The position numbers and the translations under genes are program-made. A model generated the notes under the pieces. That model had not been told where the DNA came from. It ran no database searches and saw nothing but the letters and a program-made list of their open reading frames with translations. Of a DNA stretch of 22,764 nucleotides, positions 1,763 to 22,764 are shown one piece after another; positions within the stretch are counted from its first letter, which is position 1, and each line of letters opens with the position of its first letter. The stretch is from Rhodospirillaceae bacterium (GTDB lineage: Bacteria; Pseudomonadota; Alphaproteobacteria; MPNO01; UBA2964), in assembly GCA_002724505.1 (NCBI GenBank), contig PBOV01000149.1, forward strand, positions 1-22,764, read 5' to 3'.

Positions 1763-2983
1763 ATGGCACCACATGACGGCCCCGACGGACATACCCATGA
1801 GTGGGCGGCACCCACCGACAAGTTAACCCGAGCAGGTTTAGGCACCTTTAAGGCTCCTAAATCTCCCTATGATTTGTGGATGGAAGCTCAAGACATCCCG
1901 ATTTATCGAGATATTGGTGTTAGTAAAGTTCAAAACTTGCCGATGACTAAATGGGACCTAATGGGTGGCAACGCTTCCTTCATTCAGCTTTATGGTACAG
2001 AGGGTATGTGGGGATGCCATATAATTGAAGTCCCGGGCGCTGGCTCCCTCAATCCAGTTAAGCACATCTATGAACAGCAGTATTTCGTTGTTGAAGGTCG
2101 TGGCTCAACGGAAGTCTGGGAAGAGGGCCAAGAAGACAAGGTTCATGTCTTCGAGTGGCAGAAGGGGTCTTTATTTTCAGTACCGCTGAACGCGATGTAT
2201 AGAGTGGTCAACGCGTCATCAAGTCCCGCGCTTCTGCTCGGTGGTAATACCGCCCCAAATGTCATGAATATATATGAAAACCCAGACTTTATTTTTAACT
2301 GTCCATACCAATTCCGTGATCGTTTCGATCCAGATCGGGAAGATTATTACAAGCCTAGTGATGAAATTCTCGCTGACCCTATCCGTGGCTTGGCGATGAC
2401 GCAGACAAATATTGTTCCAGATATCGTGGATTGCGAACTGCCGCTTGATAATCGTCGATCGCCAGGATATCGCCGTATAGAACCACACATGACCGATAAC
2501 AATTTTTATCTGTGGATTGGTCAACACGAAACCGGCCGTTACTCCAAGGGCCATGCTCATGGCTCAGCCGCAGTCTTAATTTGCATAAAGGGTAAGGGCT
2601 ATACCTATACGTGGCCCGCGATACATGGCCAGACCCCCTGGAAAGATGGCAAAGAAGAATTCGTAATGAGGCAGGATTATGAGCCTGTTGGCATGGTCTC
2701 AGCCGCACCTATGAGTGGAGACTGGTACCACCAACATTTCGGTATTAGCGCTGGACCTCTTCGACTAACGGCCTGGTTCGGACCCCATCATCCGGGACGC
2801 AAAGTTAAACGCCCTGGTGAAAAAGCTCTCGACTTTGGCGCCATCGACGTCCGCGATGGCGGAACGGCAATTGGATACGATATGGAGGATCCATATTTAC
2901 GTAACGAGTTTGGGGAATACCTTAAAGAAGTCGGAGCCGAAACCCAAATGGAACCGGAACTCTATGAGAGCAAGGCTAATTAA
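1763..2983 (+). CDS. Bicupin protein encoded with EutA-like reactivase
   Basis: This 406-residue cytosolic protein (no signal peptide) has two cupin barrels, at about residues 80-165 and 245-345, like gentisate-dioxygenase-type bicupins. In the first barrel the metal motif is worn down: H101 is followed by I-Y-E instead of HxH, and the second-motif His is replaced by Y146 (PLNAMY). The second barrel keeps a plausible site: H264 and H266 (GHAHG) plus H323/H325 (WYHQHF), although the usual motif Glu is absent. The protein is clearly paralogous to the bicupin at 11971-13092, sharing PLNA-Y, TN-PD, GH-HG and HQHF landmarks. The gene ends 2 bases before the eutA-like GTG, so the two are probably translationally coupled. 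GAGAG lies upstream of the ATG. The reaction is unknown; a metal-dependent dioxygenase or isomerase is possible. Confidence 0.88.
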   Translation: MAPHDGPDGHTHEWAAPTDKLTRAGLGTFKAPKSPYDLWMEAQDIPIYRDIGVSKVQNLPMTKWDLMGGNASFIQLYGTEGMWGCHIIEVPGAGSLNPVKHIYEQQYFVVEGRGSTEVWEEGQEDKVHVFEWQKGSLFSVPLNAMYRVVNASSSPALLLGGNTAPNVMNIYENPDFIFNCPYQFRDRFDPDREDYYKPSDEILADPIRGLAMTQTNIVPDIVDCELPLDNRRSPGYRRIEPHMTDNNFYLWIGQHETGRYSKGHAHGSAAVLICIKGKGYTYTWPAIHGQTPWKDGKEEFVMRQDYEPVGMVSAAPMSGDWYHQHFGISAGPLRLTAWFGPHHPGRKVKRPGEKALDFGAIDVRDGGTAIGYDMEDPYLRNEFGEYLKEVGAETQMEPELYESKAN

Positions 2984-2985
2984 AC

Positions 2986-4476
2986 GTGGCCGACACCTCA
3001 GAAGGTGGACGGTTCTCCAGTAGTGACCGCCATATTGCAGATGAAGAAGAAATTGAACTAACTAGCGTGGGCGTTGATATCGGTTCATCAACGTCCCATT
3101 TAGTTTTTTCTCGCGTTTTAATGGAACGCGTTGGTGCGCGTTATATTGTCGCCCAGCGCGAAACCATCCACGAGCCACCGATCCAGCTTACGCCATATGC
3201 CAATGGCGACGATATTGACGCAATGGTCCTTGGCGAATTTATCGAAGCCAGCTTCAAGAGTGCTGGCATCGCGCGGTCAGACGTTGATACCGGGGCGTTA
3301 ATTTTAACGGGTGTTGCTGTACGCCGCCGGAATGCTCGTGCCATCGGTGATCTTTTTGCCGCCGAAGCTGGAAAATTTGTAGCTGTTAGCGCCGGCGATG
3401 GGCTAGAGGCAACTATGGCCGCGCATGGTTCTGGCGCAGTCAAAAGATCTTCCAAAAGCGATGGGCTAACGGTCAATGTTGATATAGGGGGCGGCACAAC
3501 AAAGATTGCCCATTGCCGTGCGGGCAAAGTCGAACGGGTGACAGCTGTAGATTGTGGCGCACGACTGATTGTTTTAGACGAAAGTGGCAGGATTATAAGG
3601 TTAGAACCTACCGGTAAGGCGCATGCAGATGATGTTGGTGTAACCCTAAAGATTGGCTCTCAACCCTCTCGCGATGAACTTGATAGAATTGCTGAAGTAA
3701 TGGCGACGCGGATTGTCGAAGCCACCGGACTATCTAAGCTATCTTCGAATACGGAAGGGATGCTTCTGCTACCCCCATTGCCAATGATTGATGGTATTGA
3801 CGCCCTGACGTTTTCTGGTGGTGTTTCGGAATTTGTATACGGAAATGTTGAGAGGGGGTTTGGTGATCTTGGACCACAACTTGCAAAACATGCTCGCGAT
3901 AAATTTAAAGCGACGGGTGCCTCGATTGAACAGCCCGTCGCCACCATACGCGCCACTGTCGTGGGCGCCTCGCAGTATACCGTTCAGCTTTCCGGCACAA
4001 CGATTTACATTGAACCCCGTGATACCGTGCCGTTGAAGAACGTCCCAGTTATCGTCCCCGAATTCGACTTTACCAAACCCTCAATCAACGAAAACCAAAT
4101 CAAAAATGCAATTGAAATAGCGTTAACACGACTTGACCTTGTCGATAATGAAACTCCAGTTGCTCTTGGTTTTCGTTGGAAAGGGTCTGCCAGTTTCTCC
4201 CGGCTTAACCAATTTGGTGAAGGCTTAAAAGCTGCTCTTTTCGCACAATTAGTAAACAACCAACCCCTAATCCTTATTAGTGATGGCGATATCGGTGGAC
4301 TAGTCGGCATTCATCTTAGAGAGGAAATGAATATAGAAACTCCTGTGATTTCTATAGATGGGATTACGCTGAACGAATTTGACTATATCGATATCGGCGA
4401 GATCATCCCCTCCTCCGGCGCGGTCCCAGTCGTCATCAAGTCATTAGTGTTCCCATCTTCGACGACTATGAGATAG
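2986..4476 (+). CDS. eutA: EutA-like ethanolamine ammonia-lyase reactivase
   Basis: This 496-residue ATPase-fold protein belongs to the EutA family. EutA uses ATP to swap damaged cobalamin for fresh adenosylcobalamin in ethanolamine ammonia-lyase (EutBC). Seen here are a phosphate-binding loop GVDIGSSTSHLVFS (about 29-42), a second loop VNVDIGGGTTK (163-173), the GSGA stretch (148-151), and FSGGVSEF (276-283), all as in EutA. Enteric EutA is about 467 residues, so the length is normal with a slightly long acidic N-terminus. The start is GTG, 2 bases after the bicupin stop, with AAGG about 10 bases upstream. No eutB or eutC is in the window; either the lyase is elsewhere or this protein serves another partner. 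Family assignment is firm, the role is open. Confidence 0.9.
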   Translation: MADTSEGGRFSSSDRHIADEEEIELTSVGVDIGSSTSHLVFSRVLMERVGARYIVAQRETIHEPPIQLTPYANGDDIDAMVLGEFIEASFKSAGIARSDVDTGALILTGVAVRRRNARAIGDLFAAEAGKFVAVSAGDGLEATMAAHGSGAVKRSSKSDGLTVNVDIGGGTTKIAHCRAGKVERVTAVDCGARLIVLDESGRIIRLEPTGKAHADDVGVTLKIGSQPSRDELDRIAEVMATRIVEATGLSKLSSNTEGMLLLPPLPMIDGIDALTFSGGVSEFVYGNVERGFGDLGPQLAKHARDKFKATGASIEQPVATIRATVVGASQYTVQLSGTTIYIEPRDTVPLKNVPVIVPEFDFTKPSINENQIKNAIEIALTRLDLVDNETPVALGFRWKGSASFSRLNQFGEGLKAALFAQLVNNQPLILISDGDIGGLVGIHLREEMNIETPVISIDGITLNEFDYIDIGEIIPSSGAVPVVIKSLVFPSSTTMR

Positions 4477-4581: not shown

Positions 4582-5889
4582 ATGTTTAAATCTAAATTGA
4601 CAACATCATTATCTATTTGTTTGGCAATTGGTGTAGGTGCTATTTCTGCATCAGCTAACGAGGTCGCTGAGTTTTACAAGGGAAAGAGAGTAACGATGCT
4701 CGTTGGGTCTGGTCCCGGTGGCGGGTACGACACTTATGCCCGACTAGTTAGTCGCCATATGGGTCGACATATTCCCGGCAACCCAACTTTTATCACTATG
4801 AATAAAACCGGCGCAGGTTCGATAATTGCGACCAATTTCATGGTAAACATTGCGCCTAAAGACGGTACGATTGTGGGTGGAGTTCAAAGATCAATCGCCT
4901 TAGTCCAGCTTTTAGGAACACCTGGTGTTAAATTCAAATCCGCCGAGCTTAACTGGCTTGGTAGTTTGGCAAAGGAAGCTGGCGTCTGCGGATTAGCAAC
5001 ACGTGCTGCAACCTCATTTGATTCTGTGTTTAAAAAACAATTCACTATGGGGGGTGCTGGACAAAATTCTACGGAGTGGTGGCCCGCACTTTTCCGCAAT
5101 CTCATGGCGGCAAAGTTCAAGCTAATTAGAGGGTACCCAGGCACACCGCAAATTCATATGGCCATCGAAAAAGGCGAACTTGATGGTGTTTGTCAATCTT
5201 GGGCTTCTTTTGAAAAAATCGGGAAAAAGATGCTAAAGGACGGAACAATGAAGCCGTTAGTGCAGGTATCTCTCCACCCTGACCCTGCAATGACAAAGTT
5301 AGGAGTTCCGAGACTACAGGAGTTTATTACTAAGGATAATCTAGCCAAAGGTCAGAATTTAGAAGACGTTAAATTATTCTTCAAACTGACCGTGGTACCA
5401 CCCCTAATGGGAAGGCCTTTCGCCATGGCACCAGGCATACCAAAAGCGCGCGCTGATGCTATGAAAAAAGCATTTATTGATATGTCGAAGGACCCAAAAT
5501 TTCTTGCTGACGCAAAACGTCTAAAACGCGATATCGAGGTGGTTACTGGAGACGAAATTCAGGAAATTATAGCTGAATTAGCGAAGACGCCTAAGGCAAA
5601 ACTAGCCGCTCTAAAAGGTCACTTTAAGTTCAAAGGACCTGTTGAAAAAATTGTATTAAAAATTATCGTCGACGAGGGAAAAGTTATTAAGACAAAACGT
5701 GGAGGTCGTCGAATTACAATAAAAACTACAGGTAAGGGTAAAAAACGAACTGCAAAGGTCTCCGGTAAAAAAACCAAAGTTACAATCAATGGAAAGAAAG
5801 CAAAACGTAAGGCAATTAAGGTTGGCATGAATTGTGCCTTCCATTATTACGGTAACAAGACTAGAGCTAAGAAAATCATCTGTAATTAA
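4582..5889 (+). CDS. TctC/Bug periplasmic receptor with basic C-terminal domain
   Basis: This is a substrate-binding protein of the tripartite tricarboxylate transporter (TTT) type. A signal peptide spans residues 1-25 (cleavage after SASA), then comes the Bug fold with GSGPGGGYDTYAR and the TGAGS loop near the N-terminus and a PGIPKARADAM helix near residue 290. Bug proteins are usually about 320-330 residues. Here 88 extra residues (about 348-435) follow, roughly one third Lys/Arg, with alternating beta-like stretches and two Cys (418 and 434) that could pair in the periplasm. No TctA/TctB membrane genes are present, which is common for these receptors. The ATG has a strong GGGGAG ribosome site. 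A hairpin terminator follows closely. The ligand is unknown; the position suggests uptake of a substrate for the bicupin-eutA or DapA-like genes. Confidence 0.88.
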   Translation: MFKSKLTTSLSICLAIGVGAISASANEVAEFYKGKRVTMLVGSGPGGGYDTYARLVSRHMGRHIPGNPTFITMNKTGAGSIIATNFMVNIAPKDGTIVGGVQRSIALVQLLGTPGVKFKSAELNWLGSLAKEAGVCGLATRAATSFDSVFKKQFTMGGAGQNSTEWWPALFRNLMAAKFKLIRGYPGTPQIHMAIEKGELDGVCQSWASFEKIGKKMLKDGTMKPLVQVSLHPDPAMTKLGVPRLQEFITKDNLAKGQNLEDVKLFFKLTVVPPLMGRPFAMAPGIPKARADAMKKAFIDMSKDPKFLADAKRLKRDIEVVTGDEIQEIIAELAKTPKAKLAALKGHFKFKGPVEKIVLKIIVDEGKVIKTKRGGRRITIKTTGKGKKRTAKVSGKKTKVTINGKKAKRKAIKVGMNCAFHYYGNKTRAKKIICN

Positions 5890-6104: not shown

Positions 6105-7067
6105 ATGCCGCGCTTTAAAGATTTTATGCCCGCTGGGGTAATTCCCGCAACTTTACTGGCATTCAACCAAGACTTTTCTATAGATGAGCCTTCTACACGT
6201 GCACATCTCAGGCATGTTGGAAATGTATCTGGGATCAGCGCAATTACTGTTAATGGGCATGCCTCAGAGGTCCACGCTTGTGAACAAAAAGAGCAGCGAC
6301 GTATTCTAGATATCTCGCTTGATGAAGTTGGCGACAAATTGCCTCTGATAAACGGTGTATGGGCTGATGGGAGCCATCAAGCCGCACAAATAGCTAAATG
6401 GTCTGAAGCTGCAGGTGCTTCATGCTTACTAGTGTTCCCACCACAACCAATAATGATGATGCAAGGTCAGATGAAAGCGGAAATGGGACTCACCCATTTT
6501 GAGACTATTGCTGAAGCTACCGACCTACCCATTATCGCATTCCAATATCCGTTAGAGCAGGGTTATCGCATGGAAACATTGCACCGGATGATCGAAAAAA
6601 TTCCAAACCTTGTCGCTATTAAGGATTGGAATATGGGTCAGATTCATGAACAGCATGTGCGCGAGCTACAGTCCTCAGTTCGGCCGTTCAACGTTTTGAC
6701 GACCAACAGCGCTTGGCTCATGAGTTCTTTAACCATGGGAGCCAGGGGATTACTGTCAGGTTCCGGCAGTGTCATAGCTGATTTACAGGTGGCTCTATTT
6801 AATGCCATACAAAAAGGCGATCTCAAACAGGCCCAAAAACTTAACGATAGGATTTACCCAACCGCAAAATGCTTTTACGGGCCTCCTGCAACGGATATGC
6901 ATAACCGTATGAAAGAAGCACTTGTGATGTTAGGACGAATGCCTAGTGCGTTAGTTCGACCGCCATTGGTTAAACTAACCGAGGCAGAACTCAAAGACGT
7001 GCGTCAAGCCATCGACGATGCAGGTCTTTCTTATGAAGGCGCAGCTTCCCTGCGGCACGCCGCGTAA
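6105..7067 (+). CDS. DapA/NAL-superfamily aldolase or lyase, non-canonical
   Basis: This 320-residue (alpha/beta)8 protein is in the dihydrodipicolinate synthase / N-acetylneuraminate lyase family, whose members make or break C-C bonds of 2-keto acids through a Schiff base. The Schiff-base lysine is K173 in NLVAIKDW. Two signature sites differ from true DapA: the GTTGE loop reads NGHASE (50-55), and the catalytic Tyr three residues before the conserved Pro is F146, with a Tyr (Y148) directly before P149 (AFQYP). It is therefore unlikely to be the lysine-biosynthesis enzyme. The ATG has AGGAG at 6093-6097. It stands alone between a terminator and the repeat-protein gene. Related enzymes often sit near TTT receptors in catabolic loci; the substrate is unknown. 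Confidence 0.85.
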   Translation: MPRFKDFMPAGVIPATLLAFNQDFSIDEPSTRAHLRHVGNVSGISAITVNGHASEVHACEQKEQRRILDISLDEVGDKLPLINGVWADGSHQAAQIAKWSEAAGASCLLVFPPQPIMMMQGQMKAEMGLTHFETIAEATDLPIIAFQYPLEQGYRMETLHRMIEKIPNLVAIKDWNMGQIHEQHVRELQSSVRPFNVLTTNSAWLMSSLTMGARGLLSGSGSVIADLQVALFNAIQKGDLKQAQKLNDRIYPTAKCFYGPPATDMHNRMKEALVMLGRMPSALVRPPLVKLTEAELKDVRQAIDDAGLSYEGAASLRHAA

Positions 7068-7997: not shown

Positions 7998-9089
7998 CTA
8001 TTGGCGCAAGCCAAGCCGCTGCATCCGAGGTAATATTTCATTTCTGATCACAGGCATGTCGTCGACATAGTTTACGAGCCCAATAGCCATACCGCTAAGC
8101 CCACACCCCGCCAGAAATTCAAACTGTTTAGCGACCCCATCATAACTGCCAACGATAGGATAGGTTCCAGTACCGCTGATGATTGCCTCCTTCATCTTAG
8201 CTAGCTTAGGTCCAGAGGATGAGCCGCCCTTGGTACGAATTTTGATTGTATGCTCAGCCGCCTCCCAGTCACCCTTCTCATGGACAATATAGTGATAAAA
8301 CTCTTTCGCTTCTTTTTCAGTGGATTTCGTAATGACATGGCCACTAGCGTAAATACCCGCTCCATTCTCTGGTGCAATTTTCGTCAGATCTTCAATCTTG
8401 GCTGCCAATTCATCCAGCTCGCGGATTGACGTAAACAGGCAATCACAATGGCGTGCCGCAAATGATCGTCCAACTGGCGAGTTTCCTGCACTAACTAAAA
8501 ACGGTCGTTCATCTCCGTAGGGTCTTGGTTTACATTTTACATTTTTAAGATTGAAGAATTTTCCTTGATAATCAAAGGGTTCTTTCTCCGACCAGATACG
8601 TTTCACGATAGTGATCCATTCTTCGGAATATTCGTACCGCTCATCGTGGTCACGGATGCCAACGCCATGCATTTCATGCTCGTCAACATTCTAACCAGAG
8701 ACAATATTAAGACCAAAACGGCCCTGACCAATATGGTCGGCTGTTACCATTTGTTTAGCACAAAAAACTGGTCCAATCATAGACACATGAACCGTCCCGA
8801 AAATCGAAATCCCTTTAGTTACCGCCAATAAACCAGACGCCCAGGTCAGAGTTTCATATGTTGAGCTAGCTGTATCCGTAATCCCGCCATAGCCACGCCA
8901 ACGTCCGATTGGCAGAATGAATTCAAGCCCTGCCTCGTCGGCTAGTTGTGCAGCCTTTAAATTGTTTTCCCATGATGCATCCCAATATTCCGGTGCCAAT
9001 GTCATAGTTAGGCCACCAGAACAATTCATGCCAAACAAGCCCAACTTAAACCTGTTGTCATTGTACATCCGAGTGCCGATCCGGCTCAT
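7998..9089 (-). pseudogene. RutA/SfnG-like LLM flavin monooxygenase, in-frame TAG
   Basis: A single reading frame of 364 codons encodes a luciferase-like monooxygenase of the RutA (pyrimidine oxygenase) / SfnG type, which uses FMNH2 and O2. It runs from MSRIGTRMYNDN through GRFGLNIVSG, then a TAG at 8691-8693, and continues in the same frame with NVDEHEMHG to IVGSYDGV and the C-terminus. In RutA and SfnG the residue after VTG/VSG is Trp, so TGG to TAG is the likely change. Everything else looks intact: no frameshift, normal length (about 360). It could be a fresh pseudogene, a sequencing or assembly error, or read-through. A ribosome site (GTAGGG) precedes the start. The carbonic anhydrase gene is 74 bases upstream on the same strand. 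Confidence 0.82.
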
Positions 9090-11970: not shown

Positions 11971-13092
11971 TCACGTAAATTGGGACTCATCAATAAAGTG
12001 TCCCATGCCTGATTCGGCTCCAGCCTTCTTCATTGCCTCTAAAAACATCTCGTGGATACGCGGGTCTTGGTCTTGATATTCGATTTGGGCTCCGCCCTTA
12101 TTCACATCCACATCCATCCCCATAAAGATACGCCGTTTCTCTTCCATCAAAGGGTAGCGCGACCCTCCGCAAGCGATCGCTAGATAGCGAGTCGGCGTCG
12201 CAGACGCGTTGAAATGCTGATGAAACATCATATCCGGTGGCGCGAAGACCGTACCATGGCTCCAATCAACCCGAGTAAACTCCTCGTTCCCTTCGTACCA
12301 AAGGAGAGAATAGCCATGACCGGTTACGCACATAACATGAAAATCTGCGCCATGGCGATGGCCCTTTTTATACGTTCCCACCGGCATTTCAGACATGTGT
12401 GCGTGCATTGCCCCGTCTGCTAAAACGAACATCATATTCGAGCCGCCAGCCTCACGGGCTTCCCATTTTTGAAGCTCAAATGTTTGCAAGTCAGGTATAA
12501 AATTGGTCTCCCACATATGCCGGCCGGGCCTTTTTGGAATAAATGTACCTTCGCCCGAATAGTAATCAGCTGAACCTTCACGAGCGGGAAAACGGAACGG
12601 GTTTTCAAACACAAACCTATGATCATGAAACACATTCATTATCATTGGCATGTTGTTGGTCGATGACAGCCGTGCGGGCTCACGGCCCGAGCCATTGAAA
12701 TGCTGATATTTAGCGTTTAATGGCAGAGCAAAGAGGCTACCCTTTCCCCATTCGAAGCTATGCTTGGTGCCGTCTGCCGTCTCCACCTGGGTGCTGCCTT
12801 GACCAGAAAGGCAATAGACAACCTCCTCAAACATATGCTGCTGTTGTGACGTTGAGCCACCCGGCTCAAGTTCTAGTACAAATACTGATAGCCAATCGCC
12901 TCGGCCCTTAAGATGGGCTAAACCGCCATTACAACCAAACCGATCCCACTTCTGAACCGGCACATCTGGCAAATGAATTCCGAAATCTTCCGTAACGGGT
13001 ACGCCTTCGCCTTCAGCCCAGTCTAAAAATGGATCGGCGAGAAACGGCTTATCCCCCTCTTGTGATCTAATCTCGTCTTGCAACGTATCCAT
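11971..13092 (-). CDS. Second bicupin protein, paralogue of the first
   Basis: This 373-residue protein has two cupin barrels without a signal peptide. The first barrel has H86 and E89/E90 but no HxH, and Y129 stands where the second-motif His is expected. The second keeps H245 and H247 (GHRHG) and H291/H293 (FHQHF). It shares the landmarks KGSLFALPLNAKY, TNFIPDL and GHGY with the bicupin at 1763-2983, so the two are homologous. The start is set at the ATG at 13092 because GGAG (13099-13102) lies six bases before it; an upstream in-frame TTG at 13146 would add 18 residues but has no such site. It is divergent from the hydrolase-LLM-TetR operon across 286 bases with two palindromes. Gentisate-dioxygenase-like chemistry is a guess; the substrate is unknown. 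Confidence 0.87.
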   Translation of the reverse strand: MDTLQDEIRSQEGDKPFLADPFLDWAEGEGVPVTEDFGIHLPDVPVQKWDRFGCNGGLAHLKGRGDWLSVFVLELEPGGSTSQQQHMFEEVVYCLSGQGSTQVETADGTKHSFEWGKGSLFALPLNAKYQHFNGSGREPARLSSTNNMPMIMNVFHDHRFVFENPFRFPAREGSADYYSGEGTFIPKRPGRHMWETNFIPDLQTFELQKWEAREAGGSNMMFVLADGAMHAHMSEMPVGTYKKGHRHGADFHVMCVTGHGYSLLWYEGNEEFTRVDWSHGTVFAPPDMMFHQHFNASATPTRYLAIACGGSRYPLMEEKRRIFMGMDVDVNKGGAQIEYQDQDPRIHEMFLEAMKKAGAESGMGHFIDESQFT

Positions 13093-13098
13093 CGCTTT

Positions 13099-13102
13099 CT
13101 CC
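13099..13102 (-). promoter_or_regulatory. Ribosome binding site that sets the bicupin 2 start
   Basis: GGAG on the minus strand lies six bases before the ATG at 13092. It favours this start over the TTG 54 bases upstream, which lacks a comparable site. Confidence 0.7.
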
Positions 13103-13157
13103 AAATTCCTTTTAAAAGAGTGTTTTCGGTAAAATTTTTCCACCAAATTCTAAATTC

Positions 13158-13378: not shown

Positions 13379-14164
13379 ATGGCCGATCACAAGGCTGAAA
13401 CGTTAAATATCAATGGATGTTCTATAGAACTGCGGCGCGGGGGGAGTGGCCCACCCCTGATGTTTTTGCATGGCGCCGGTGGTGTCAGTACTTGGGCGCC
13501 CTATCTTGATGCGCTCGCTGATCGCTTTGACGTTATTGTTCCCAGCCACCCTGGCTTTGGCAGTTCAGATGATCCCGATTGGCTCGATACCATTTCTGAT
13601 ATGGCCTATTTCTATCTTGATTTTATAGAAGAGCTTGGGCTCAAAGATATTCATCTCGTTGGCAATTCGCTTGGTGGCTGGATCGCCTCAGAAATCGCGA
13701 TTCGTAACGCCGAACGCCTCAAGACCCTCACCCTGGTCTCTGCGGCGGGAATAAACGTCGTTGGTGTCCCGATGGGTGACATCTTTTTGTGGAGCAACGA
13801 AGAAGCGGCGCGCAAGATGTTCTTCAATCAAGATATAGCTGAGCAACGTATTGCCCTTGCTGCGGAGATGACCGATGAGCAAAAAGACATTCAGCTAAAA
13901 AACTATTTCACCACCGGCAAACTTTCCTGGAATCCGCGCTTTCATAATCCTGATCTTATTAAGTGGCTGCATAGGATTAAGATACCGACCATGCTGATTT
14001 GGGGGGAAAACGATAAAATTTTTCCGCCAGCCTATGGCAAAGCATTCAGAGAGGCCATTGTCGGATCGGAATTGCGTATCATTCCGGAATGCGGACACCT
14101 ACCCCACCAAGAAAAGCTTGAGGAATTTCTTGCGGGCGTCAAAGACATTACATCTAAGAATTAG
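13379..14164 (+). CDS. Alpha/beta hydrolase
   Basis: This 261-residue cytosolic serine hydrolase resembles the meta-cleavage-product hydrolase and esterase group. The oxyanion-hole motif HGAGG is at 31-35, the nucleophile is S97 in GNSLGG (95-100), the acid is D212 (GENDKIF) and the base is H240 (CGHLPHQE). The length is normal (260-290). GGGGGA lies eight bases before the ATG. The LLM oxygenase gene starts 15 bases after its stop, and the TetR gene follows, so the three form an operon. An oxygenase plus a hydrolase suggests oxidative ring or chain cleavage followed by C-C or ester hydrolysis, but the substrate cannot be named. Confidence 0.92.
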   Translation: MADHKAETLNINGCSIELRRGGSGPPLMFLHGAGGVSTWAPYLDALADRFDVIVPSHPGFGSSDDPDWLDTISDMAYFYLDFIEELGLKDIHLVGNSLGGWIASEIAIRNAERLKTLTLVSAAGINVVGVPMGDIFLWSNEEAARKMFFNQDIAEQRIALAAEMTDEQKDIQLKNYFTTGKLSWNPRFHNPDLIKWLHRIKIPTMLIWGENDKIFPPAYGKAFREAIVGSELRIIPECGHLPHQEKLEEFLAGVKDITSKN

Positions 14165-14179: not shown

Positions 14180-15343
14180 ATGCGGTTTTCCTTTTTTCAT
14201 CTAATGCCATACAGCGCTGTCGATCTCGACGCCATAGAACACACCGCCTGGATTAAATTTTCCAATAGTAATTACGACCCTAAAGAAGGCCATAAGCTTT
14301 ACAACCGTTACCTCGATGAACTTGAATTCGCCGACAAGTTAGGGTTTGACGGTATCTGCGTTAACGAACATCACCAGACTGCCTATGGTATTATGCCTCA
14401 ACCCAGCGTGCTCGCTGGTGCTCTATCGCGTCGAACCAAAAGTGCAAAAATTTGTGTCTTGGGACGAGCCCTACCTCTGACAGAAAACCCTCTATCAATA
14501 GCCGAAGAATATGCCATGATTGACAATGTTACTGGTGGTCGACTCATCGCCGGTTTCGTACGTGGCATCGGCTGCGAATACCATTCTTATATGGTTAATC
14601 CCTCCAGCTCTCTGGCTAAATTCCATGAGGCACATGATCTGATTTTGCAGGCATGGACCCAACCGGGGCCGACAACCTTCGAGGGTAAATATTACCGCTT
14701 TCAATATGTAAATATGTGGCCTCGTCCCTATCAAGAACCGCATCCACCAATTTGGATCCCATCGCAAGGATCATCGGAGACAAAAGATTGGGCTTCTCAC
14801 CCCGACCGCAAGTACACAATGCTCATGACCTTCAGCCCAATAAAAAATGTAGTCCGCAACATGAATGCTTATGCCGACAAATGTCTGGAGTACGGATACA
14901 AATGTCAACCAGACCAACTAGGCTGGGCTTTGCCTCTCTACGTTGCCGAAACCGATGAGAAGGCCATAGAGGAGGCACGACCACACATCCAAAATTTCTT
15001 TAATAAGTTCGTGTTAGCGCCTACGGAATATCGAATGCCGCCAGGGTATTCCTCTATTAATTCATATAAGATGATTTTGGAAAACAAGATGAAGTTCCGG
15101 GAGCAATTCCTCAGCATCGAGATGCTGATGGAAAATGGCATGTTTATCTGTGGCAGCCCATCAACCGTCGTCGAAAAGCTCGAAGCTTACCAAGCTGAGA
15201 TGGGATATGGTAACCTCGTGATCATGGGGCAGTTTGGCACCCTAGATCATGAACACACCAAAAAGAGCATGCAGCTATTCGCTGAGGATGTGATGCCTAA
15301 ACTCCGGCATATAGGTGAGCCCGACGCTGTGGCTGCCGAATAA
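14180..15343 (+). CDS. LLM-class flavin-dependent oxygenase
   Basis: This 387-residue bacterial luciferase-like monooxygenase uses reduced FMN and O2. Seen are the N-terminal strand RFSFFHLMPY, the ADKLGFDGICVNEHH segment (about 51-65), the TGGRLIAGFVRG segment near residue 118, and the P-P-I-W strand near 190, in the order usual for the family. The length is slightly above the common 340-370. AGGGAG precedes the ATG. It lies 15 bases downstream of the hydrolase gene and just before the TetR gene. No flavin reductase is in the operon; the one at 21227-21709 could supply FMNH2 (inference). The substrate is unknown, and it is not close to the RutA-like gene at 7998-9089. Confidence 0.92.
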   Translation: MRFSFFHLMPYSAVDLDAIEHTAWIKFSNSNYDPKEGHKLYNRYLDELEFADKLGFDGICVNEHHQTAYGIMPQPSVLAGALSRRTKSAKICVLGRALPLTENPLSIAEEYAMIDNVTGGRLIAGFVRGIGCEYHSYMVNPSSSLAKFHEAHDLILQAWTQPGPTTFEGKYYRFQYVNMWPRPYQEPHPPIWIPSQGSSETKDWASHPDRKYTMLMTFSPIKNVVRNMNAYADKCLEYGYKCQPDQLGWALPLYVAETDEKAIEEARPHIQNFFNKFVLAPTEYRMPPGYSSINSYKMILENKMKFREQFLSIEMLMENGMFICGSPSTVVEKLEAYQAEMGYGNLVIMGQFGTLDHEHTKKSMQLFAEDVMPKLRHIGEPDAVAAE

Positions 15344-15356
15344 ATCAATCGTAACA

Positions 15357-16007
15357 ATGCTGCAGACTATCTATCTTGATCAAGATTACGGCCGAACGCC
15401 TCAACAAAATCGAAGCCGCCAGACTCTTACGCGAATTGTACAGGCGGCAGAGGCGCTGTTCGCCGAACGAGGCTATGACGGCACCACCGTCAATCAGATT
15501 GTTAACAAGGCGCGCTGCTCAGTCGGCGGCTTCTATGCTCGTTTCAAGGACAAGGAAAGCCTATTTCTCCATATCCACGATCGACAATGCGACTTGCTAA
15601 TTAAACGCGTTAATTTTCTTGGCGACTTAGTACGAGCAGAAAATGCTTCTCTGGAGACGGTTGTCCGACAAAGTGTACGAACACTCTTTCTCTTCGCGGG
15701 CCAAAGACGCGAACTGACAAGGATGTTTATACAACGGAGTGGTGTCGATGGAGAATTCCATGCCCGCTACGCCAGAACTTGGGGAAGAGTTAGAGATCGA
15801 CTGCGTCCCATCATGCTCGCGCGCAAAAACGAGATCCAGACCGGTACAGACCCGATACGAGCAATCGATTTTACGCTGCAGCTGATGCATAGTCTGTGGG
15901 CAAATGACGTACTACATCACAAAATGAAAGATATAACCGGCCAGGAAACAGGTGAGGCATTAATTAACGATCTGACAAACACCTGTCTTGCATGGCTTGG
16001 TCTATAA
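15357..16007 (+). CDS. TetR/AcrR-family transcriptional regulator
   Basis: This 216-residue repressor-type protein has an N-terminal TetR DNA-binding domain: IVQAAEALFAERGYDGTTVNQI (about 27-48) with the recognition region through GGFYARFKDKESLF (about 57-70). The C-terminal ligand domain (about 80-216) is not recognisable. The start chosen is the ATG 13 bases after the LLM stop; a GTG at 15315, overlapping the LLM gene, would add 14 residues that do not look like TetR sequence. Neither has a strong ribosome site. As the last gene of the hydrolase-LLM operon, it probably senses the operon's substrate and acts at the palindromes near 13158-13209 (inference). Confidence 0.9.
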   Translation: MLQTIYLDQDYGRTPQQNRSRQTLTRIVQAAEALFAERGYDGTTVNQIVNKARCSVGGFYARFKDKESLFLHIHDRQCDLLIKRVNFLGDLVRAENASLETVVRQSVRTLFLFAGQRRELTRMFIQRSGVDGEFHARYARTWGRVRDRLRPIMLARKNEIQTGTDPIRAIDFTLQLMHSLWANDVLHHKMKDITGQETGEALINDLTNTCLAWLGL

Positions 16008-17506: not shown

Positions 17507-18790
17507 GTGAAATCAGTGTCTACATCCGACAGTCCAAATTTATCCTTCCGGGCCGAATTTACAGCATATGCAACAGCTTTTATCAGCATCGGCATCCTGC
17601 CGATGGTCCAGCTAATTGTTCCCCTCTGGTGCCTGATCAGCCTCGGTATGTCTGCAACAATGATTGGTGTCGCAGCAGGGGCTCGTTCTTTACTAGCTGC
17701 CATATTCTCTATTCATAGCGGCGCTGTTCTAGATAGGCTCGGCGTGCGCCGAGTTATGATCTGGTGTACAATCGCAAGCGTAGTTCTCACCCTTATATAT
17801 CCACTAGTTCCACTCATAAGCTCTATAATTTTAATTCAGCTTATCCTGATCGTTATCCTTCAGTTGGTAACTGGCTTTATGCATACTATCGGATGGATCG
17901 GCTGCCAAACCCAGATCGGCCAGCTAACTAAGGGGTCGCCCAAATATATGGGGAGATTTACCTCTGTCTCTAACTTCGCAAACTTTTTTAGCCCGCCTCT
18001 TGCTGGGTGGGCATGGGATATTGGACAGGCAACACCCGTTGGCGGTGCCTGGTCAGCGTTTGGTATTATAGCCGCGTGCAATATTGCGCTGTGGATATCA
18101 GCCTCTCTAATGCCTGTTCCTGCGGCTGTGACCATACCCAAGGAACGGCCAAGAATACGCGACCTTTGGCCCTCCTTCCTCGACTATAAAGAAGCATTTC
18201 GGTTATTTCTTATTCCATCAGTAGCTTTCGTCGTGATGGCGTCTTTATTCATGAATGGCCTAATCCAGGTCCGTATGAATTTTATGTCAATATATATGGA
18301 GTCTATTGGTTATGAAGGTCGTATAATCGGATTTTTAACTGGTTTTGCCTATTTGATAGCTGGCCTAACGGCACTTCCAACCGAACGGGCTAAGAAATAC
18401 CTAGCGCCCCATTGGATTGTCGTGGTTATGATCTTGTTATCAGCCGTTGGTAACGCCATGGTGCCAGTTTTTGAAGGGATCCCGGGATTAACGTTGAGTA
18501 CTATAATTTTTGGCGCTGGTGTCGGACTTGGGATGGCCTATATTCTAATGCTACTTTCGCGAAGCGTCCCAGTAAGTCAGTTTGGCCTCAGCGTTGGTCT
18601 TCGTACAACTGGTAATCGCCTGGGCGCTACTATTGTACCCCCTATCGCGGGTCTTGCGATCGATTTAGCGGGAAATAATATCGGTATGGGTTTTTATGTT
18701 ATGTCAATCCTCTTCACCGCTGGAGCTATTGGATTGATCTATCTAGCCATTCGTTCTACCAATATTCAGGAAAATTTTTCAAAAGAATGA
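17507..18790 (+). CDS. MFS transporter
   Basis: This 427-residue inner-membrane protein has about twelve hydrophobic segments. The conserved motif A between helices 2 and 3 appears as GAVLDRLGVRRVM (about 71-83). Length and pattern are standard for the major facilitator superfamily; the substrate is unknown, with drug- or metabolite-efflux types as likely as uptake. The start is GTG with AAGGC eight bases upstream. It is divergent from the TauD remnant, across a palindromic element. The sulfhydrylase gene follows after 71 bases, so co-transcription is possible. Confidence 0.9.
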   Translation: MKSVSTSDSPNLSFRAEFTAYATAFISIGILPMVQLIVPLWCLISLGMSATMIGVAAGARSLLAAIFSIHSGAVLDRLGVRRVMIWCTIASVVLTLIYPLVPLISSIILIQLILIVILQLVTGFMHTIGWIGCQTQIGQLTKGSPKYMGRFTSVSNFANFFSPPLAGWAWDIGQATPVGGAWSAFGIIAACNIALWISASLMPVPAAVTIPKERPRIRDLWPSFLDYKEAFRLFLIPSVAFVVMASLFMNGLIQVRMNFMSIYMESIGYEGRIIGFLTGFAYLIAGLTALPTERAKKYLAPHWIVVVMILLSAVGNAMVPVFEGIPGLTLSTIIFGAGVGLGMAYILMLLSRSVPVSQFGLSVGLRTTGNRLGATIVPPIAGLAIDLAGNNIGMGFYVMSILFTAGAIGLIYLAIRSTNIQENFSKE

Positions 18791-20174: not shown

Positions 20175-21170
20175 ATGCCAAAACCCCGATTTCCAACAAC
20201 ACGAATGCGGCGTAACCGCTATGACGAATGGACACGCCGCCTTGTTGCAGAGAGCCAGCTAACAGCGAACGACCTTATCTGGCCGGTGTTTGTGCATAAT
20301 GGTCATGAGCCAAAGATCGATATTCCAAGCCTGCCTGGTGTTTCACGCCTTTCTATTAGCCAGCTCGTCACAGAGGTGGGGAGGGCAAAATCTTTTGGCA
20401 TTCCCCTTGTCGCTGTATTCCCTGTTATAGACCCCGTTCTCAAAACAGATGAAGCCGAAGAGGCCTATAACGCAGATAATTTAATCTGCCGTGCTGTGGC
20501 TGCAATAAAAGAAACCCATCAAGGAATTGGTGTCATGTGCGACGTCGCACTCGACCCCTTTACCAGCCACGGTCATGACGGGCTGTTACGGGACGGTTAT
20601 ATCGTGAATGATGACACCCTCGAAGTTCTTTGCAAGCAGGCTATCGTACAAGCGAGGTCGGGCTGCGATGTTATCGCCCCAAGCGACATGATGGATGGAC
20701 GAGTAGGCGCAATTCGGGCCGCCCTTGATGCTGAGGGTTTTGAGAATATCCGTATAATGTCTTACGCAGCTAAATACGCCTCCGGTCTTTATAGTCCCTT
20801 TCGCGATGCTGTTGGGTCAGCGTCTAACCTCAACGGTGCTAGCAAAAATACCTACCAGATGGATCCGGCCAACTCCGATGAGGCTTTACGCGAAGCTGCC
20901 CTGGATATTGAAGAAGGTGCTGACATGCTGATGGTCAAGCCAGGCCTGTTTTATCTTGATATTCTTCAGCGTATAAAGAAAAAATTTGCAATGCCGACCT
21001 TTGCTTATCAGGTTAGCGGAGAATACGCGATGCTTAAGCTTGCAAGCCAGCAAGGTCTAGTTGATGGAGAACAGGTATTGAGAGAAGCGTTGCTTTCTTT
21101 TAAGCGCGCAGGAGCTAATGGCATTCTCACCTACGCAGCGTTAGATGCGGCAGAGAAACTGGCGGGTTAA
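20175..21170 (+). CDS. hemB: Delta-aminolevulinic acid dehydratase (porphobilinogen synthase)
   Basis: This 331-residue enzyme joins two aminolevulinate molecules into porphobilinogen in heme, siroheme and cobalamin synthesis. Both Schiff-base lysines are visible: K200 (SYAAKYAS) and K255 (LMVKPG). The metal site reads DVALDPFTSHGHDG (123-136) without the cysteines of zinc enzymes, as in the Mg-dependent alphaproteobacterial type. The length is normal. It starts 23 bases after metY and ends before a convergent flavin-reductase gene. Identification is secure. Confidence 0.97.
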   Translation: MPKPRFPTTRMRRNRYDEWTRRLVAESQLTANDLIWPVFVHNGHEPKIDIPSLPGVSRLSISQLVTEVGRAKSFGIPLVAVFPVIDPVLKTDEAEEAYNADNLICRAVAAIKETHQGIGVMCDVALDPFTSHGHDGLLRDGYIVNDDTLEVLCKQAIVQARSGCDVIAPSDMMDGRVGAIRAALDAEGFENIRIMSYAAKYASGLYSPFRDAVGSASNLNGASKNTYQMDPANSDEALREAALDIEEGADMLMVKPGLFYLDILQRIKKKFAMPTFAYQVSGEYAMLKLASQQGLVDGEQVLREALLSFKRAGANGILTYAALDAAEKLAG

Positions 21171-21789: not shown

Positions 21790-22212
21790 TTACTTATTCA
21801 GGGGCGCCGTATAGTAGAGGCCGCGGCCACTAGCAACTAGCTTCTTATCGCCATCAAAGACCTCTGCTTCAGCCGTCGAGAATGTGCCGCCGATTCGGAT
21901 AATTCTGCCAACAGCCCGGAGATCACCGGGCGATGCAGCGCGGTGATAATCGACTCGCATATCAACCGTCGGCGCCGGCGCGCCAAGCTTGGCGGCAATC
22001 ATAAAGTCAGCCGCGACATCAACCAATGCTCCAAGAATTCCGCCATGAGTAACTCTTGCCTTCGGATTGGATATCATTTCCTCACGCCAACTCATCTTGA
22101 TTTCTATCTTTTCTTCATCAAGGTCAATAATTTCGAGACCCATCCAGTCGTTGAAGTGGTTGGCGATCAAGCGCACCTGTAATTCCTTAACGGTTTTTAC
22201 GTTGGCAGCCAT
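21790..22212 (-). CDS. PaaI-family hotdog thioesterase
   Basis: This 140-residue hotdog-fold protein hydrolyses acyl- or aryl-CoA thioesters in its family. The active-site segment is THGGILGALVDVAADF, with H56-G57-G58 and D65. A further conserved stretch, VDYHRAASPGDL, follows. The start is the ATG at 22212 because AGGAG (22220-22224) lies seven bases upstream; a longer frame back to 22269 adds 19 residues rich in Arg without family likeness. The flavin reductase gene follows downstream after 80 bases on the same strand. It is divergent from bpt. The acyl-CoA substrate is unknown. Confidence 0.9.
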   Translation of the reverse strand: MAANVKTVKELQVRLIANHFNDWMGLEIIDLDEEKIEIKMSWREEMISNPKARVTHGGILGALVDVAADFMIAAKLGAPAPTVDMRVDYHRAASPGDLRAVGRIIRIGGTFSTAEAEVFDGDKKLVASGRGLYYTAPLNK

Positions 22213-22219
22213 GCATTTT

Positions 22220-22224
22220 CTCCT
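22220..22224 (-). promoter_or_regulatory. Ribosome binding site that sets the thioesterase start
   Basis: AGGAG on the minus strand lies seven bases before the ATG at 22212. This supports a 140-residue product and argues against the longer upstream start at 22269. Confidence 0.75.
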
Positions 22225-22393
22225 GATTATATTAGCGATTAACCTGTCGTGCCGTCTCCTTTCCGTCAAGAGCTACATCTAAAATTGATAGTCGAATTCT
22301 ACGGAGTTACCGAGAGGAAAAAATTTTGCTCGCTTGACGTATATTTATAGAGATTTATGCTGAAACTTTGAAATTGTGGTTAAGTAGAACTTA

Positions 22394-22764
22394 ATGAATC
22401 GGCCCGTAGAACTCCGCCAGCACCGTTTTTTTATGGGAACGCGAGCTTTACCCTGCCCATATATTCCAGGCCGCATAGAACGCAAGGTTGTCACAGATCT
22501 GTCGAATCCGGACGCCCTGGAGCTGTATGATAATCTCGCGCGTGCTGGATTTAGGCGGAGCCATAGTCTTGCCTACCGCCCCGCTTGTCCTGCATGTACC
22601 GCCTGTATTCCCGTTCGAATAAGAGTAGAAGATTTTCATTGGTCACGTTCATTTCGAAGGTTAATCAAACGGAATGAATATCTAACCATCCGCGACATGG
22701 CAGCGCACGCAACGATTGAACAATATCATCTATTTACACGCTACCAAAGATGCCGCCATTCAGA
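22394..22764 (+). CDS. bpt: Aspartate/glutamate leucyltransferase, partial
   Basis: The frame is open from the ATG to the window edge (123 codons) and encodes the N-terminal half of a Bpt protein, which transfers Leu from Leu-tRNA to proteins with N-terminal Asp or Glu and so marks them for ClpS/ClpAP degradation. Seen are CPYIPGRIERK (21-31), GFRRSHSLAYRPAC (52-65) with the Cys cluster C65, C68, C71, and the IPVRI strand with SRSFRR. The family length is about 240-250, so about half is missing at the right edge. The ribosome site is weak. It is divergent from the thioesterase gene across 181 bases. Confidence 0.93.
   Translation, partial: MNRPVELRQHRFFMGTRALPCPYIPGRIERKVVTDLSNPDALELYDNLARAGFRRSHSLAYRPACPACTACIPVRIRVEDFHWSRSFRRLIKRNEYLTIRDMAAHATIEQYHLFTRYQRCRHS

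Follow-up and report, generated by a model that had tools for sequence, protein, structure and literature searches.

EutA and the closest described systems

EutA removes damaged cofactor from ethanolamine ammonia-lyase (EutBC) in a process that requires ATP, according to the published account (PMC5821096). Here we describe a EutA-like protein that appears to have a different client. Its gene lies on contig PBOV01000149.1 of a Rhodospirillaceae bacterium (assembly GCA_002724505.1), a stretch of 22,764 nucleotides (nt) referred to below as the window, directly behind the gene of a two-domain cupin protein (bicupin). An earlier note, made from the letters of the window, had placed the EutA gene 2 nt downstream of the bicupin gene in one tight unit, and this arrangement was confirmed. 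We propose that the neighbouring bicupin or UbiD decarboxylase has in the EutA-like protein a direct, ATP-driven reactivase or maturation factor, and give this reading a probability of about 0.58. What would be new here is EutA-type ATPases with another client. No description of a bicupin-EutA or UbiD-EutA system was found in the open-licence PubMed Central literature, in agreement with the earlier note, which knew of no described bicupin-EutA system.

The features of the pair are as follows.

1763..2983, + strand: bicupin, 406 residues, salicylate/gentisate-dioxygenase-like fold (open reading frame)
2063..2074, + strand: H101 and E104, first cupin domain (alignment A4)
2552..2560, + strand: HxH of the second cupin domain (H264, H266), putative metal ligands (almost invariant columns of A4, checked row by row)
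2729..2731, + strand: H323, putative third His ligand of the second cupin domain (alignment A4)
2981..2988, + strand: bicupin/EutA junction with TAA stop, 2-nt gap and GTG start (sequence)
2986..4476, + strand: EutA-family ASKHA ATPase, 496 residues, GTG start (open reading frame and PF06277)
3070..3099, + strand: GVDIGSSTSH, residues 29-38 of the EutA-like protein (conserved in alignments A3/A5)
3481..3498, + strand: DIGGGT, residues 166-171 of the EutA-like protein (conserved in alignments A3/A5)
3814..3831, + strand: SGGVSE, residues 277-282 of the EutA-like protein (conserved in alignments A3/A5)

The EutA-like protein shares with E. coli EutA 32% identity over 482 aligned positions, the whole PF06277 profile and ATP-site motifs at the same places; GVDIGSSTSH, DIGGGT and SGGVSE are presumably the Phosphate-1, Phosphate-2 and adenosine-type motifs, respectively. 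Unlike E. coli EutA, the window branch has no EutB or EutC neighbour and mostly no EutB in the genome, its partner being a bicupin or UbiD; it stands on a separate branch (support 100/100), and the window protein does not reach the cut-off of the NCBIfam EutA equivalog (best score 315.5 bits against at least 598). Assignment to the EutA family is nevertheless firm because the full-length PF06277 match is far over its cut-off (376.5 bits against 27; residues 24-489 aligned to positions 2-474 of 475). Since the genes match EutA models, a misleading name is invited. The fold search matched the model to ASKHA proteins over residues 23-492, and Pfam gave EutA, a weak BcrAD and nothing else; the protein is therefore not a P-loop GTPase of the G3E/HypB type. 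Radical-enzyme activators of the BcrAD/HgdC type are much smaller (~260 residues) and carry an iron-sulfur cluster.

The window bicupin matched no family in Pfam and NCBIfam, and is called a bicupin because of its alignment with relatives, its AlphaFold2 model (pLDDT 91.5) and its fold matches. The modelled fold is that of a bicupin and resembles salicylate and gentisate dioxygenases, and on this basis the protein looks like a ring-cleaving dioxygenase; by sequence, 3bu7 was matched only weakly and at profile level (E 1.7e-4). Its identity to salicylate 1,2-dioxygenase and gentisate 1,2-dioxygenase is about 12%, and MncA and oxalate decarboxylase ranked higher in Foldseek. Gentisate dioxygenase uses its first cupin domain, whereas in the window bicupin the set of three putative His ligands is complete in the second domain (H264, H266, H323); H325, close to H323, is also conserved. 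At the third ligand position of the first domain (146) the window protein has Tyr, where most relatives have His. All 70 aligned bicupins retain at least one full ligand set, 41 in both domains, 5 in the first only and 24 in the second only. The family comprises 1834 relatives at E <= 1e-20. We know of no EutA partner of salicylate or gentisate dioxygenases.

Two kinds of dedicated helper resemble what is proposed here. HypB, UreE/UreG and the CobW family are metallochaperones with His-rich stretches and NTPases, of other folds than ASKHA. Some EutA-like proteins share with them His-rich tails, nearby Ni/Co transporters and a presumed use of nucleoside triphosphate, but belong to the ASKHA/EutA type and carry tails in clade II only, the window protein being without them. 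A helper for UbiD also has precedent, because the LpdD chaperone delivers reduced prenylated FMN (prFMNH2) to UbiD enzymes (PMC10865409). LpdD is thus a dedicated helper of a UbiD decarboxylase, the role that we propose for EutA-like proteins of the UbiD-linked clade; by its description, LpdD is unlike EutA in being small, proteasome-assembly-chaperone-like and no ASKHA ATPase.

Conserved pairing of EutA with bicupin

Forty EutA regions from relatives and 80 named loci were combined into a set of 119 distinct loci with 131 EutA hits, and adjacency was counted by tblastn. A bicupin lies within 450 nt of 91 of the 131 hits, upstream on the same strand in 78, downstream in 11 and on the opposite strand in 2. 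This proportion is not a census, because the named loci are the best 80 of at least 512 confirmed matches, obtained with an alignment of eight EutA copies as the scan query. Contigs present twice were counted once (L079=L076, L080=L075, L123=L046, L126=L049, L155=L064). With the duplicates the figures are 136 hits, 96 adjacent, 83 upstream and 124 loci, and, for the comparison of pairs given below, 85 pairs, r 0.90 and 84/85; duplicates are still included in the gap figures and in the trees. The distance from stop to nearest possible start has a median of 9 nt over 81 upstream pairs, five of which are duplicates; the gap is 30 nt or less in 53 and a 4-nt overlap is present in seven. UbiD decarboxylase genes lie within 400 nt of 11 of the 131 hits, one of these also beside a bicupin, and at locus L083 the order is bicupin-EutA-UbiD with gaps of about 10 nt (tblastn coordinates), the UbiD being confirmed.

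The EutA loci come from unrelated bacteria, among them Alpha-, Beta-, Gamma- and 'Delta'-proteobacteria, Chloroflexota, Candidatus Binatia and one actinobacterium, Microbacterium. Gene order is flipped in one clade with the adjacency retained. The adjacency is therefore found in many genomes besides this one, and because it is widely conserved it is not due to chance. Loci L135 and L154 also carry the pair; their labels, Bordetella parapertussis and Klebsiella pneumoniae (metagenome assemblies), look doubtful and were not used. A neighbour cluster, 'c3', was set aside because true Rieske oxygenases were mixed in it with antisense frames that run over bicupin and EutA genes.

The window is contig C140 of a 2.45-Mb genome, 69% complete, whose assembly holds four EutA copies. 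Besides the window, contig C48 carries a second bicupin-EutA pair and C156 a UbiD-EutA-NicO run. On the fourth contig, C123 (L008), EutA stands beside an aldo/keto reductase. This contig is probably a contaminant because it is 99.4% identical over 12.9 kb to the SAR202 isolate OSU_TB62 (L103); its EutA was rejected as evidence from the host, and is still counted among the adjacency hits and present in the 115-row tree. Upstream of the C48-type pair a 457-residue protein (L006, 3169-4542) is conserved at 7 distinct loci, and its first 284 residues match no Pfam family.

In a careful EutA tree of 61 rows, the four EutB-linked rows split from the 57 others with branch support of 100/100. These reference rows are few; the tree kept 61 of 115 rows, long-branched G222_eutB and L122_8864 and 52 others having been dropped, and a quick tree of all 115 rows agrees with the split. 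Group I (41 rows, the window EutA among them) mostly has a bicupin upstream. Group II (8 rows) consists of long proteins with the bicupin mostly downstream or near, and group III (8 rows) of four UbiD-linked members, two more that have a bicupin upstream and a last two that lack both partners. Cupin- and UbiD-linked members thus branch apart from EutB-linked EutA and do not nest inside it.

Linkage to EutB was assessed at the genome level. EutB was sought for 50 of the 80 named loci (49 genomes), of which 49 have a bicupin within 450 nt and one, L090, does not. It is present in 7 of the 49 genomes, as against 61 of 299 Pseudomonadota of high completeness (Fisher p 0.44), many of the 49 being incomplete assemblies, which lowers their count. 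Among 27 genomes of the host's order, a sample that shares four genomes with the 49, EutB occurs in one; it was not found in the host's own genome, at 69% completeness. The bicupin-EutA pair therefore goes with EutB no more than background, and cupin-linked EutA does not always occur with EutB. In the 299 Pseudomonadota, EutA (E <= 1e-30) was found in five, namely the host's genome and four in which EutA is directly beside EutB. Most EutB enzymes in this sample seem to work without a close EutA, because 57 of the 61 EutB genomes gave no EutA match at that threshold.

The two proteins also vary together. Over 80 distinct adjacent pairs, EutA and bicupin distances correlate with r 0.90 (best of 1000 permutations, 0.194), and in 79 of the 80 the nearest neighbours of the bicupin share the EutA clade. 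Within clade I the correlation is 0.76 (54 named-locus pairs, duplicates included). The correlations were computed without an organism-tree control. Two loci, L095 and L112, each carry two divergent pairs, a clade-I and a clade-II one, with each bicupin beside EutA of its own clade. By these comparisons each EutA clade has its own bicupin type.

Presence and absence match as well. In the host's order both genes occur together in 21 genomes and are both missing from 5, while the bicupin occurs alone in 1 and EutA alone in none (Fisher p 7e-5), and a bicupin lies within 600 nt of 33 of 51 EutA hits, fragments included. Linkage to EutA depends on the bicupin type: when the 75 bicupin matches of the order are grouped by score, 18/19, 10/10 and 4/5 are linked in three groups as against 0/19 and 1/22 in two others, the sole linked member of the last being part of a split gene that lies next to EutA. 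Among the 299 Pseudomonadota a bicupin (E <= 1e-20) occurs in the host's genome only. All 11 searched genomes that were chosen for a EutA without a directly adjacent bicupin encode bicupins, with 2 to 31 matches each; four have one 1 to 3 kb from EutA and seven have none in the fetched locus, while other bicupin-less loci (L084, L090, L105 and L158, for example) were outside this search. Adjacency, matching trees and matching presence and absence strongly support the view, put forward in the earlier note from the tight coupling, that the two proteins work together. Bicupin matches number 15, 24 and 31 per genome in three Chloroflexota (SAR202 and relatives; L103, L085 and L087), in which the family, judged from these sequence matches, is greatly expanded.

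One EutA clade bears a further feature. All 19 clade-II EutA proteins examined have His-rich tails at both ends, with HEHGPDADHDHD-like N-terminal and mostly HGHSHDHSH-like C-terminal tails in L134 (11581-13299), L048, L054, L055, L061, L157 and others, a composition that strongly suggests metal binding. Genes for Ni/Co transporters recur in 15 of the 119 distinct loci. They were scanned for with sequence patterns, Pfam confirming the four cases checked (L007, L133, L134, L113); L068 was added from its cluster.

Other genes of the window

Further features of the window are listed below.

4582..5889, + strand: TctC-like substrate-binding protein of a tripartite tricarboxylate transporter (clusters with TctC-like proteins of other EutA loci)
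6105..7067, + strand: DHDPS-family aldolase/lyase (PF00701, 115.7 bits)
11971..13146, - strand: second bicupin, 33% identical to the pair bicupin (score group without EutA link; internal control)

The TctC-like gene starts 105 nt 3' of the EutA-like gene and is probably on the bicupin-EutA transcript. Its product has no Pfam match of its own, the name being assigned by eye, and ends in an unusual lysine-rich tail. The second bicupin gene is divergent from an alpha/beta hydrolase gene (13379-14164), a luciferase-like monooxygenase and a TetR-like gene (assigned by eye), and these probably form a separate catabolic cluster. Another luciferase-like monooxygenase gene (7998-9089) is split into two open parts by one in-frame stop; L076 holds a homologous open frame of 363 residues.

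No EutB, EutC, microcompartment or B12-enzyme family was found among the 18 window proteins scanned with Pfam, a scan that omitted the genes at 15315-16007, 17507-18790, 21790-22269 and 22394-22762 and small open reading frames. Within that scope the absence of lyase, microcompartment and B12-enzyme genes reported by the earlier note holds. A HemB/ALAD gene at 20175-21170 is a general tetrapyrrole gene.

Proposed action and alternative explanations

Fe(II) dioxygenases are prone to oxidation, and the proposed helper probably acts through loading or exchange of a metal or cofactor. ATP binding and hydrolysis in the ASKHA core would shift the rest of the EutA-like protein against its cognate bicupin, with which it would be in physical contact, and so open the bicupin. 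The opened enzyme would then expel a lost, wrong or oxidised metal or take a new one, by analogy with the described action of EutA, which frees ethanolamine ammonia-lyase of damaged cobalamin. For UbiD-linked members, prenylated FMN or its metal would be what is exchanged, and in the His-rich clade the two tails may hold metal for delivery. The earlier note had suggested, as one of two options, that this EutA branch serves a different partner, perhaps in a metal or cofactor swap in the bicupin itself. The His-rich clade, the Ni/Co transporters and the UbiD-linked clade speak for this option, while no swap was demonstrable. Only tentatively can we suggest an undescribed ASKHA metallochaperone/reactivase family in which ATP drives the loading or swapping of metal in bicupin dioxygenases, and of prFMN or metal in UbiD, one clade carrying a His-rich store.

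Several observations weigh against a direct reactivase. The second-domain ligand set is lost in 5 of the 70 bicupins and the first-domain set in 24, that of the window included. His-rich tails are absent from the window protein and its clade, and no Ni/Co transporter is found in the window; NicO occurs in 40 of the 49 pair genomes anyway, and only 3 of its matches fall within any of the 50 searched loci. In the fold search the EutA-like protein matches Ppx/GppA enzymes better than activators, and ASKHA kinases and filament proteins score alike, so that the fold alone cannot specify a reactivase; diol dehydratase reactivase is not among the fold matches listed, which weighs neither way. Fusion of the two proteins gave no dependable case. 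When the window bicupin and EutA were joined into one query and the bicupin part was scored, 19 long proteins came up, five with a EutA domain, all of these five single-member entries. P0132, P0134, P0136 and P0140 read as frameshifted. P0129 joins the two in frame, lacking the bicupin end and stopping mid-EutA; since it is one truncated metagenome protein, no fusion is claimed, although this one may be genuine. A 978-residue open frame at L138 was likewise rejected, its bicupin lying in another frame and overlapping the EutA start by 4 nt. Finally, ordinary co-occurrence of operon genes in one catabolic pathway could yield much of the pattern.

The alternative that survives best, though we hold it unlikely, is that the EutA-like protein, as a metabolic kinase or ATP-dependent activating enzyme, works on a pathway substrate or product, with bicupin and UbiD at adjacent steps. 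ASKHA folds include many kinases and phosphatases; exopolyphosphatases are the top matches of the window protein and the kinase AnmK is included. Neighbours in the 119 loci look catabolic, with TctC-like proteins in 38, TctA in 24, alpha/beta hydrolases in 19 and Rieske ferredoxins in 10 (Pfam was used to check a single member of each cluster for TctA, the hydrolases and the ferredoxins), and a Rieske oxygenase and a molybdenum hydroxylase are also found. However, the similarity is full-length to EutA and to no kinase family, and the pairing tracks the bicupin subfamily and no fixed pathway, being kept while the transporters and hydrolases around it vary. Where one cluster holds two EutA clades side by side, each beside a bicupin of its own, cognate helpers are the better explanation.

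Less probable again is a plain operon partnership, in which the genes are co-regulated and travel together without either protein acting directly on its partner. Bacterial operons often have short gaps and catabolic neighbourhoods, and matching trees, here compared without an organism-tree control, also arise from inheritance or transfer as a unit. Against this, both gene orders exist, the genome-level match of presence and absence in the order is 21/0/1/5 (both, EutA only, bicupin only, neither), and all 7 genomes without a bicupin in the fetched EutA locus encode bicupins elsewhere. That the true client is a cobalamin enzyme encoded elsewhere in the genome, the bicupin being incidental, is very improbable; a cobalamin enzyme elsewhere, next to which the bicupin works, was the other option of the earlier note. 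EutA is described as a remover of damaged cobalamin (PMC5821096) and some copies have cobalt or nickel transporter genes nearby, but EutB, the one B12 enzyme surveyed genome-wide, is no commoner than background (1/27; 7/49, lowered by incomplete assemblies, against 61/299), these proteins have their own EutA branch, and the conserved neighbour is a bicupin and no B12 enzyme.

EutA is taught as a reactivase of a B12 enzyme. If the EutA-like protein is a direct helper whose partner is a cupin or UbiD, repair of enzymes at the expense of ATP extends beyond B12, and the large uncharacterised bicupin family may look inactive in the laboratory for want of its helper. Should the metal reading hold as well, these proteins would be a new kind of metallochaperone, and the classical B12 reactivase would belong, as a single branch, to a wider family of enzyme-repair proteins.

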